This document shows, piece after piece, positions 44,045 through 47,343 of a stretch of 64,000 bases of DNA. This DNA is from Actinomadura craniellae (GTDB lineage: Bacteria; Actinomycetota; Actinomycetes; Streptosporangiales; Streptosporangiaceae). A program made the translations under genes and the position numbers. The stretch is taken from the NCBI RefSeq assembly GCF_003289645.1, contig NZ_QLYX01000015.1, positions 124,001-188,000 of the forward strand, in the 5' to 3' direction. The notes under the pieces were generated by a model. It saw nothing but the letters and a program-made list of their open reading frames with translations. It ran no database searches and had not been told where the DNA came from. Every line of letters begins with the position of its first letter. Position 1 is the first letter of the stretch.

Positions 44045-45472
44045 TCAGTCGAAGTAGTTCGGCTGGGTCTGGACGTTCAGCTCCTTGAGCTTGATCCAGC
44101 GGGCCGGGTCGGTCCGCTTGTCCCGGATCTGCAGGACGTCCAGGCCCTTCTGGATGTCGTTGGAGTAGATGTAGCCGTTGTAGTAGTACGCCGACCACGA
44201 ACCACCCGTGATCATCTGGGTGTCCGAGAGTGGCCCGCGCTCGAAGAAGCCGATCTCGTAGGGCTTGCGGGAGTTGGTGAAGTCCCACACGGAGATGCCG
44301 CCCTGGTACCAGGCCTGGACCATGATGTCCTTGCCCTTGACCGGGATCAGCGACCCGTTGTGCGCCACGCAGTTCTCGGTGTCGGCGTTGGCCCGCGAGA
44401 TCTTGTAGTAGCTGCGGAACTTCAGCTCGGCCTTCTTGCCGTGCCCCACGATGTCGTAGATCGCGTTGGCGCCGCGGTTCGGGCCGATCGTCGGGTTGCA
44501 GGTGGCCGCGCCGCCGCCGCCGAGCTCGTCGGTGAACACGATCTTGTTGGCCTTGTTGTTGAACGAGGCCGAGTGCCAGAACGCGAAGTTCACCGTGTCA
44601 CGTACGACGTCGATGAGCTTCGGCTTGGCCGGGTTGGACACGTCGAACAGCGCGCCGTCACCCATGCAGGCGCCCGCCATCAGGTCCTTGTCGGGGTAGA
44701 CCGTCAGGTCGTGGCAGCCGGTGGTCGGGTAGGTGGTGGAGCCACCGCCCGGGTTGCCACCGTCCGGGAACAGCACCGGCTCGGCCACCACCGCGGCGCC
44801 CGTCGGGTTCTTGGTCGGCACCTTGATGATCGTGATCTGGTCGAAGGGGTACTTGCAGTCCGCCCCGACCGAGGTGTCGCCCAGCAGGTACGACGAGACG
44901 TACACGTACACCGAGTTGCGGTCCACGCCCTTGCCCGGCACCAGGGTGTGGGTGTGCGAGCCGCAGTCGGTCTCGACGGCCTTGACGTACTGCGGGTTGG
45001 CGGGGTCGCTGATGTCGAAGATCTTGATGCCCTCCCAGGCGGTCGGGTCGGTGACCGGCTTGGCGACGCTCTGGCAGGAGTTGTCGCTGCGGGAGGAGTC
45101 GGTGGACAGGAACAGCAGGTTCCCCGAGATGGAGATGTCGTTCTGCGAGCCGGGGCAGAGCACCTGGCTGACGATCGTCGGCTTCGAGGGCTTGCTGATG
45201 TCGTAGATGACGAAGCCGTTGTAGTTTCCGGCGTAGGCGTACTTGCCCTTGAACGCCAGGTCGGAGTTGAGCGCCGCCGTCGAGGCGAAGTCGCCCTGCT
45301 TGGGGATGTTGGCCAGCAGGGTCATGTTGTTGCTGCTCACCTGGCCGTCGACCGGCGGGATGTCCGCCGCGGCCGGAGGCGCCGCGAGGATCGTGCTGAA
45401 GGCCACGACCAGGGCGGTGAGCGTTCCGAGCAGTGTTCTGCGTCGAGTTCTGTAGGTGCGAGCTGGCGCCAC
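44045..45472 (-). CDS. Secreted LVIVD-repeat protein (copy 1)
   Basis: 475 residues from a GTG with AAAGGAG 6 nt upstream. The N-terminus has a Sec/Tat-like basic stretch (RTRRRTLLG) then a hydrophobic core ending APPAAADIPPVDG, a plausible cleavage. The mature part is a beta-propeller of LVIVD-type repeats (GNYNGFVIYDISKPSKPTIV, GIKIFDISDPANPQYVKAV, DGALFDVSNPAKPKLIDVV, GGISVWDFTNSRKP). Conserved His clusters occur in GSHTHTLVPGKG, TGCHDLTVYP, FWHSASFN and CVAHNG. Metal or heme binding is possible but unproven. It is about 80% identical to copy 2 by eye. Confidence 0.85.
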   Translation of the reverse strand: MAPARTYRTRRRTLLGTLTALVVAFSTILAAPPAAADIPPVDGQVSSNNMTLLANIPKQGDFASTAALNSDLAFKGKYAYAGNYNGFVIYDISKPSKPTIVSQVLCPGSQNDISISGNLLFLSTDSSRSDNSCQSVAKPVTDPTAWEGIKIFDISDPANPQYVKAVETDCGSHTHTLVPGKGVDRNSVYVYVSSYLLGDTSVGADCKYPFDQITIIKVPTKNPTGAAVVAEPVLFPDGGNPGGGSTTYPTTGCHDLTVYPDKDLMAGACMGDGALFDVSNPAKPKLIDVVRDTVNFAFWHSASFNNKANKIVFTDELGGGGAATCNPTIGPNRGANAIYDIVGHGKKAELKFRSYYKISRANADTENCVAHNGSLIPVKGKDIMVQAWYQGGISVWDFTNSRKPYEIGFFERGPLSDTQMITGGSWSAYYYNGYIYSNDIQKGLDVLQIRDKRTDPARWIKLKELNVQTQPNYFD

Positions 45473-45494
45473 ACTGACTCCTTTGTCCAGTTAA

Positions 45495-45577
45495 CCCGTG
45501 ATGGGACAGTGATCACCGGGAGTATCGCTGGTTACGGGGTGAGGTGCCAGGTCTGCATTGATTTGTAAGCCTCTTGA
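45495..45577 (-). promoter_or_regulatory. 83-bp conserved upstream block of LVIVD copy 1
   Basis: Aligned with the block at 47179-47261 it shows one mismatch in 83 bp. On the complement strand it includes a GATACT -10-like hexamer and then CCCGGTGAT...ATCACGGG, a hairpin with a 9-nt loop and one bulge (45495-45520). It contains the palindrome GTGATCAC. It probably carries promoter, operator and the start of the leader. Confidence 0.65.
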
Positions 45578-45661
45578 GATAAAAGACCCTTTCGTCCAGT
45601 AGCCAAAATCGGGTATAGGCGGCCTTTGACGTGGGTATTCGTCCCTGACCTGGGAAAAGGC

Positions 45662-45694
45662 GGAGCCCCGGACCACCAGGTGGTCCGGGGCTCC
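45662..45694 (-). terminator. Terminator of LVIVD copy 2
   Basis: GGAGCCCCGGACCACC (45662-45677) pairs with GGTGGTCCGGGGCTCC (45679-45694), a near-perfect palindrome of 16 bp per arm. It lies 27 bp beyond the copy 2 stop and insulates it from copy 1 on the same strand. Confidence 0.9.
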
Positions 45695-45721
45695 TGAGAT
45701 GCGACCGATCCGGCTAGCTCG

Positions 45722-47155
45722 TCAGCCGAAGTAGTTCGGCTGGGTCTGGACGTTCAGCTCCTTGAGCTTGATCCAGAGGGCCGGGTCGGTCCGCTTGTCG
45801 CGGATCTGCAGGACGTCGAGACCCTTCTGGATGTCGTTGGAGTAGATGTAGCCGTTGTAGTAGTACGCCGACCACGAGCCACCCAGGATGAGCTCGGTGT
45901 TGGAGAGCGGCCCGCGCTCGAAGAAGCCGATCTCCTTGGGCTTGCGGGAGTTGGTGAAGTCCCACACGGAGATGCCGCCCTGGTACCAGGCCTGGACCAT
46001 GATGTCCTTGCCCTTGACCGGGATCAGCGATCCGTTGTGCGCCACGCAGTTCTCGGTGTCGGCGTTGGCCCGCGAGATCTTGTAGTAGCTGCGGAACTCC
46101 AGCCGGCGCTTGTTGCCGTGACCCACGATGTCGTAGATCGCGTCGGCGCCCTTCTTCTTCCCGATGGTGGTGTTGCAGGTGGCCGTGCCGCCGCCGCCGA
46201 GCTCGTCGGTGAACACGATCTTGTTGGCCTTGCTGTTGAACGTGGCCGAGTGCCAGAACGCGAAGTTCTTGTCGTCCCGGACGGTGGCGATCGTCTTCGG
46301 CTTGACCGGGTTGGAGATGTCGAACAGCGCGCCGTCACCCATGCAGGCGCCCGCCATCAGGTCCTCGTCGGGGTAGACCGTCAGGTCGTGGCAGCCGGTG
46401 GTGGCGCTGGTGCGGTCCGGGTAGGGCAGGTCCTCACCGGGGTTGCCGCCGTCCGGGAACAGCACCGGCTCGGCCACCACCGCGGCGCCCGCGGCGTTCT
46501 TCACCGGCACCTTGATGACCGTGATCTGGTCGTGCGGCGGCTGGCAGTCGGGGAAGGTGGCGTTCGGCGAGTACGACGAGACGTACACGTACACCGAGTT
46601 GCGGTCCACGCCCTTGCCCGGCACCAGGGTGTGGGTGTGCGAGCCGCACTTGGTCTCGACGGCCTTGACGTACTTGGGGTTGCTGACGTCGCTGATGTCG
46701 AAGATCTTGATGCCCTCCCACGACTCCTTGAGCGTGGCGGACGCCGCCGTGCTCTGGCAGGAGGTGTCGCTGCGGGAGGAGTCGGTGGACAGGAACAACA
46801 GGTTCCCTGAGACCGAGATGTCGTTCTGCGAGCCGGGGCAGAGCACCTGGCTGACGATCGTCGGCTTCGCGGGCTTGCTGATGTCGTAGATGACGAAGCC
46901 CTCGTAGTTGCCGGCGAAGGCGTACTTGCCCTGGAACGCCAGGTCGGAGTTGTACGCTCCGGTCGAGGCGAATCCACCCTGCTTGGGCACGTTGGCCAGC
47001 AGGGTCATGTTGTTGCTGCTCACCTGGCCGTCGACCGGCGGGACGTCCGCCGAGGCCGCGGGGGCCGCGACGACCGTGGTGAGTGCCACGGCGAGGCCGG
47101 CGAGGATTCCGAGAAGCGTTCTGCGTCTCGTTTTGGGGTTGGAGGCTGGCGCCAC
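45722..47155 (-). CDS. Secreted LVIVD-repeat protein (copy 2)
   Basis: 477 residues from the GTG at 47155, preceded by AAAAGGAG as in copy 1; the open frame upstream to 47200 is ignored for that reason. Signal region KTRRRTLLGILAGLAVALTTVVAAPAASADVPP. Repeats include GNYEGFVIYDISKPAKPTIV, GIKIFDISDVSNPKYVKAV and DGALFDISNPVKPKTIATV. The C-terminal 120 residues are nearly identical to copy 1 (ending QTQPNYFG versus QTQPNYFD). Divergence is concentrated in the central loops (SPNATFPDCQPPHD versus LLGDTSVGADCKYPFD). It is divergent from the DUF305 gene. Confidence 0.85.
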   Translation of the reverse strand: MAPASNPKTRRRTLLGILAGLAVALTTVVAAPAASADVPPVDGQVSSNNMTLLANVPKQGGFASTGAYNSDLAFQGKYAFAGNYEGFVIYDISKPAKPTIVSQVLCPGSQNDISVSGNLLFLSTDSSRSDTSCQSTAASATLKESWEGIKIFDISDVSNPKYVKAVETKCGSHTHTLVPGKGVDRNSVYVYVSSYSPNATFPDCQPPHDQITVIKVPVKNAAGAAVVAEPVLFPDGGNPGEDLPYPDRTSATTGCHDLTVYPDEDLMAGACMGDGALFDISNPVKPKTIATVRDDKNFAFWHSATFNSKANKIVFTDELGGGGTATCNTTIGKKKGADAIYDIVGHGNKRRLEFRSYYKISRANADTENCVAHNGSLIPVKGKDIMVQAWYQGGISVWDFTNSRKPKEIGFFERGPLSNTELILGGSWSAYYYNGYIYSNDIQKGLDVLQIRDKRTDPALWIKLKELNVQTQPNYFG

Positions 47156-47178
47156 ACCGACTCCTTTTGTGCTGGTGT

Positions 47179-47261
47179 CCCGTGATGGGACAGTGATCAC
47201 CGGGAGTATCGCTGGTTACGGGGTGGGGTGCCAGGTCTGCATTGATTTGTAAGCCTCTTGA
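47179..47261 (-). promoter_or_regulatory. 83-bp conserved upstream block of LVIVD copy 2
   Basis: Partner of 45495-45577 (82 of 83 bases identical). It contains the same hairpin (47179-47204) and GATACT. It occupies the divergent region shared with the DUF305 lipoprotein gene. Confidence 0.65.
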
Positions 47262-47343
47262 TACATAAGCCCCTTTTGTCCGCTGGCCGAAATGGGTAGC
47301 GTCCCGTCCTTGGAGTGGCACGACACGAGGGCGGGGAGCATTG

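Follow-up and report, generated by a model that had tools for sequence, protein, structure and literature searches.

Short-tract gene conversion between bacterial paralogues is an established process, exemplified by the tuf genes of Salmonella and nifH of Rhizobium, in which two copies per genome are kept alike (PMC8223754). The pair of genes described here resembles these cases, as its two copies also appear to be kept alike in short tracts by conversion; it differs from them in having its most evident tract in the promoter and in being a mosaic, with other patches that are old and distinct. The LVIVD repeats that both genes encode have been described in cell-surface proteins (PMC2447325). 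In the window, that is, the whole stretch of 64,000 nucleotides that was analysed, both proteins match the corresponding Pfam family (PF08309) and carry signal-peptide-like N termini, with the difference that in each of them a single LVIVD stretch passes alone.

The two LVIVD genes are arranged in tandem on the minus strand and their products are predicted to be secreted, in agreement with the first-pass annotation of this DNA. Copy A (44045..45472, 475 aa) and copy B (45722..47155, 477 aa) were delimited by their ORFs and by the PF08309 matches, which score 53.4 and 39.6 bits for the two proteins, against a gathering cut-off of 20.2. Both genes start with GTG, following the ribosome site AAAGGAG in copy A and AAAAGGAG in copy B, and the GTGGCGCC start of copy B was aligned with that of copy A; a 492-aa ORF from 47200 was discarded for copy B because its start is too early. 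The proteins, judged by eye to be about 80% identical, share 82.2% of their residues by computation, and the coding DNA is 87.7% identical. The duplicated unit spans from the terminator to the promoter. Duplication of the terminator had also been reported, and minus-strand, terminator-like hairpins were found 3' of copy A (43983..44014, z -4.15) and 3' of copy B (45662..45694, z -4.67), both folding strongly, though without a U tract. The copy A hairpin sits within the 3' end of a convergent plus-strand gene of the GtrA family. The host genome measures 7.5 Mb, and LVIVD protein similarity places it near Actinomadura and Actinocorallia.

Upstream of each gene lies an 83-bp block on the minus strand, with diverged flanks, that comprises the promoter and the beginning of the leader (45495..45577 in copy A and 47179..47261 in copy B). 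The two blocks differ, as first noticed, at a single base, position 45542, where the minus strand reads T in copy A but C in copy B. With 1 mismatch in 83 positions, compared with 32 in 202 at four-fold sites of the genes (p 1.5e-4), the block lies above the coding average. The broader claim that the block is better conserved than the genes is correct on average, but the coding part also contains perfect runs of 93, 78 and 67 bp, as well as three tracts in which A and B differ at no more than one base per 83 nt. Given that the length of the longest identical runs is unremarkable when four-fold sites alone are considered (p 0.59), this test was replaced by tests calibrated on orthologues. The most identical coding windows fall where orthologues scarcely vary, so conservation has to be judged site by site, and once constraint is corrected for, it is the block that stands out most.

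Vegetative promoters of actinobacteria have an ATACT-type -10, a poor -35 about 17 bp away and a ribosome site of the AAGGAG type. The two LVIVD genes resemble them in the -10 and the ribosome site, and probably in the poor -35, the difference being that a scan for a strict sigma-70 consensus gave no match. The upstream regions of about 25 orthologues of the Actinomadura group align with the block, and their consensus consists of cAGaCCTatgCA, about 17 bp, [C/G]ATACTCC, nGATCA, a G-run and AAAGGAG before the start codon. In these orthologous loci, the -10 is strongly conserved, the -35 at 17 bp is weak and GATCA lies near the expected start; relatives also keep AAAAGGGtctTTGATCTC immediately upstream of the promoter. 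Judging by these elements, the block is the LVIVD promoter with a short leader, probably of the vegetative or housekeeping type, with predicted start sites. The -10 hexamer GATACT is found at 45521..45526 in copy A, where ATACTCC is nearly invariant among relatives, and at 47205..47210 in copy B, both on the minus strand. A probable weak -35, TGGCAC, lies 17 bp from the -10 of copy A (45544..45549), as placed by the position of CTatgCA/CTgGtCA in relatives, with a probable counterpart in copy B, placed in the same way, at 47228..47233; the -35 elements and the start sites thus positioned are probable assignments. As the block appears to be a genuine promoter, a few of its positions are truly constrained. 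In the alignment of orthologous upstream regions, which had been proposed as a check, the promoter elements (-10 and GATCA) are kept and most block columns vary freely.

This freedom to vary can be quantified. The mean orthologue entropy of the 82 block columns comparable with orthologues is 1.06 bits, higher than in any coding window of equal length, and 48 of the 82 reach at least 1 bit, with a single A/B mismatch among them. Resampling of coding sites with equal orthologue entropy led us to expect 17.6 mismatches in the block where 1 is observed, and a logistic model trained on coding sites led to an expectation of 14.6 (P < 5e-5). The flanks, on the other hand, exceed expectation, with mismatches at 17 of 43 aligned columns on the 5' side (45578..45620, minus strand; 7.7 expected) and at 12 of 22 on the 3' side (4.3 expected). 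The 5' flank is homologous to the conserved element AAAAGGGtctTTGATCTC of relatives, and the 5' edge of the block interrupts AAAAGGG...GATCTCAAGA, an element kept in relatives. Moreover, in 17 of the 61 block columns with a clear consensus, A and B depart from the orthologue consensus together. Considering that constraint would preserve ancestral states, these shared departures form the pattern of a recently copied tract.

The history of the genes themselves is a mosaic. Mismatches between A and B in the coding part are over-dispersed (84 vs 23), and in a tree that includes genus g95, which was found via a promoter sequence model of 106 positions and carries a comparable tandem LVIVD pair (X1 and X2), A and B form a sister pair when the whole gene is used. 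Codons 352-475 of copy A (44045..44419, minus strand) form a tract apparently homogenised with copy B, the clade of A and B receiving a support of 100/99, and nucleotide identity reaches 99.4% over residues 352-403. Codons 128-262 of copy A (44687..45091, minus strand), by contrast, contain diverged patches resembling the X1-type gene of g95: A joins the X1 group (96/90), with shared indels, B is nearest to Actinomadura genes, and a clade of A and B is rejected with a p-AU of 0.020, a value to be read in the light of the fact that both partitions were picked after the divergence had been inspected; for residues 190-262 alone, the AU test falls short of significance (p 0.084). Two indel-bearing loops of A, SYLLG..SVGxDC and NPGGG..TYPTTG, resemble X1, while in B the same loops, SYSPNAxFPDCQPPHD and a longer NPGxxLPYP loop, resemble Actinomadura. 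The flank of the copy A promoter is Actinomadura-like. From these patterns, A may be either a B-type gene that gained X1-type patches or an X1-type gene that was overwritten elsewhere; import of an X1-type middle part into A would be another way to arrive at this mosaic. Within g95, identity between X1 and X2 at codons 376-400 is 1.0 and 0.987, and in genome G363 the two group together over residues 100-162 (100/99), which indicates that exchange within such pairs recurs.

Identity thus exceeds expectation within sharp edges, the two copies are more alike in tracts than their history predicts, and the tree changes from one part of the gene to another. The explanation that we hold with considerable confidence is that of an ordinary LVIVD promoter homogenised, along with several coding stretches, by gene conversion between tandem paralogues. 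Local gene conversion was one of the two readings offered by the first-pass annotation, and it is upheld by the sharp edges, by the excess identity at sites that are variable in relatives and by gene trees that shift along the gene. Homologous recombination would have copied the promoter block between A and B, several coding stretches would have been copied with it, and the identity of the block would be due to recent homogenisation, added to a modest set of promoter positions under true constraint. The case was built on one genome of the window's genus, and the process was probably conversion rather than re-import from another strain. It is an ordinary known process, concerted evolution, of which this locus is a clear example. 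A bolder view, which we regard as improbable, is that tandem LVIVD genes in this family recombine as a pair, conversion keeping promoter and core alike and the variable surface loops being maintained as alternative cassettes; such a system would diversify a secreted propeller.

The other reading offered at first, strong regulatory constraint, supposes an operator or activator site in which hardly any base can be dispensed with, so that the copies would be identical without recombination. In its favour, the block is a promoter whose -10, GATCA and upstream boxes are conserved across Actinomadura, but A and B are matched at all but one of the columns whose orthologue entropy is 1 bit or more and share 17 departures from the orthologue consensus. 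The element is also absent elsewhere in the genome: the promoter model matches at A and B only (E 1e-16 and 1e-14), the next E being 0.4. A regulon operator was therefore rejected, and in line with this, there is no regulon and no co-occurring regulator gene that could be named, as had been suggested for a check. Across the family, the model gave eleven further matches with E < 1e-4, all beside LVIVD genes, and three weak matches (E 0.001-0.009) not beside them, and when 80 relatives and 343 genomes of the family were searched for the block at the DNA level, one weak match only (76% over 74 nt) was returned outside the window, upstream of an LVIVD gene of the Actinomadura group. In g95, the X1 and X2 promoters differ freely, their identity being 0.39-0.43 in one genome and 0.74-0.75 from species to species; unlike each other yet kept between species, they indicate that this genus does not need its two promoters to be identical. 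Constraint of this strength is, therefore, unlikely, although a lineage-specific constraint on the block is possible. More generally, near-identity of paralogue promoters is poor evidence of regulatory constraint unless orthologues are consulted.

About equally unlikely is a very recent tandem duplication followed by fast adaptive divergence of the proteins, in which the identity of the block would simply reflect young age. The dN/dS of 0.72 between the copies, with a dS of 0.17, and the sister relationship of A and B over the whole gene are compatible with it, but the block flanks differ at about 40% or more of their columns, and since other genera already carry the alternative patches and indels, these did not arise as fresh mutations. 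A dN/dS of this size is high for a conserved secreted protein, and the old alternative patches explain it at least in part.

The bulged hairpin and the palindrome reported in the block are present in both copies, as an imperfect inverted repeat, CCCgGTGAT...ATCACGGG, with GTGATCAC (45495..45520 in copy A, minus strand, overlapping the expected transcription start), but neither is conserved in relatives: GTGATCAC occurs in 0 of 30, TGATCA in 11 and GATC in 21. RNAalifold predicted no pairs, fold z-scores over 27 sequences scatter around zero, and the repeat arms of one species pair with each other no better than with those of other species (P 0.40), so the covariation expected of a hairpin was not observed. 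Symmetry between CTCCG and CGGGG does exceed shuffles. An RNA leader acting on transcription or translation through the hairpin is highly improbable, for although its arms can pair in both copies and the fold of the copy B leader is somewhat stronger than those of shuffled sequences (z -2.3), there is no conserved RNA structure, an Rfam search of the region gave only chance matches below the cut-off, and the -10 places the expected transcript start near 45513, inside the repeat, which would leave the 5' arm mostly untranscribed.

Tandem LVIVD arrays recur in other genomes, with pairs in G359 and G363 (L160 and L161, genus g95), three copies in G008 and four in G046. In the g95 genomes G362 and G361, the LVIVD genes L165, L166 and L169 are seen in fragments only; they may be broken or have been truncated by the assembly. 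Recurrent tandem pairs with exchanged patches offer a natural case for short conversion tracts in actinomycetes.

Divergent from copy B lies a plus-strand DUF305 gene (47344..48018; Pfam PF03713). Among the papers searched, none names LVIVD and DUF305 together. In 122 of 134 LVIVD loci (L009-L142) from several actinobacterial families, a divergent DUF305 gene lies upstream, and this tightly conserved pair is a lead to the function of both. CopM, which a paper with repeated mention of DUF305 describes as copper-binding (PMC4335983), may be a lead to what the pair does.
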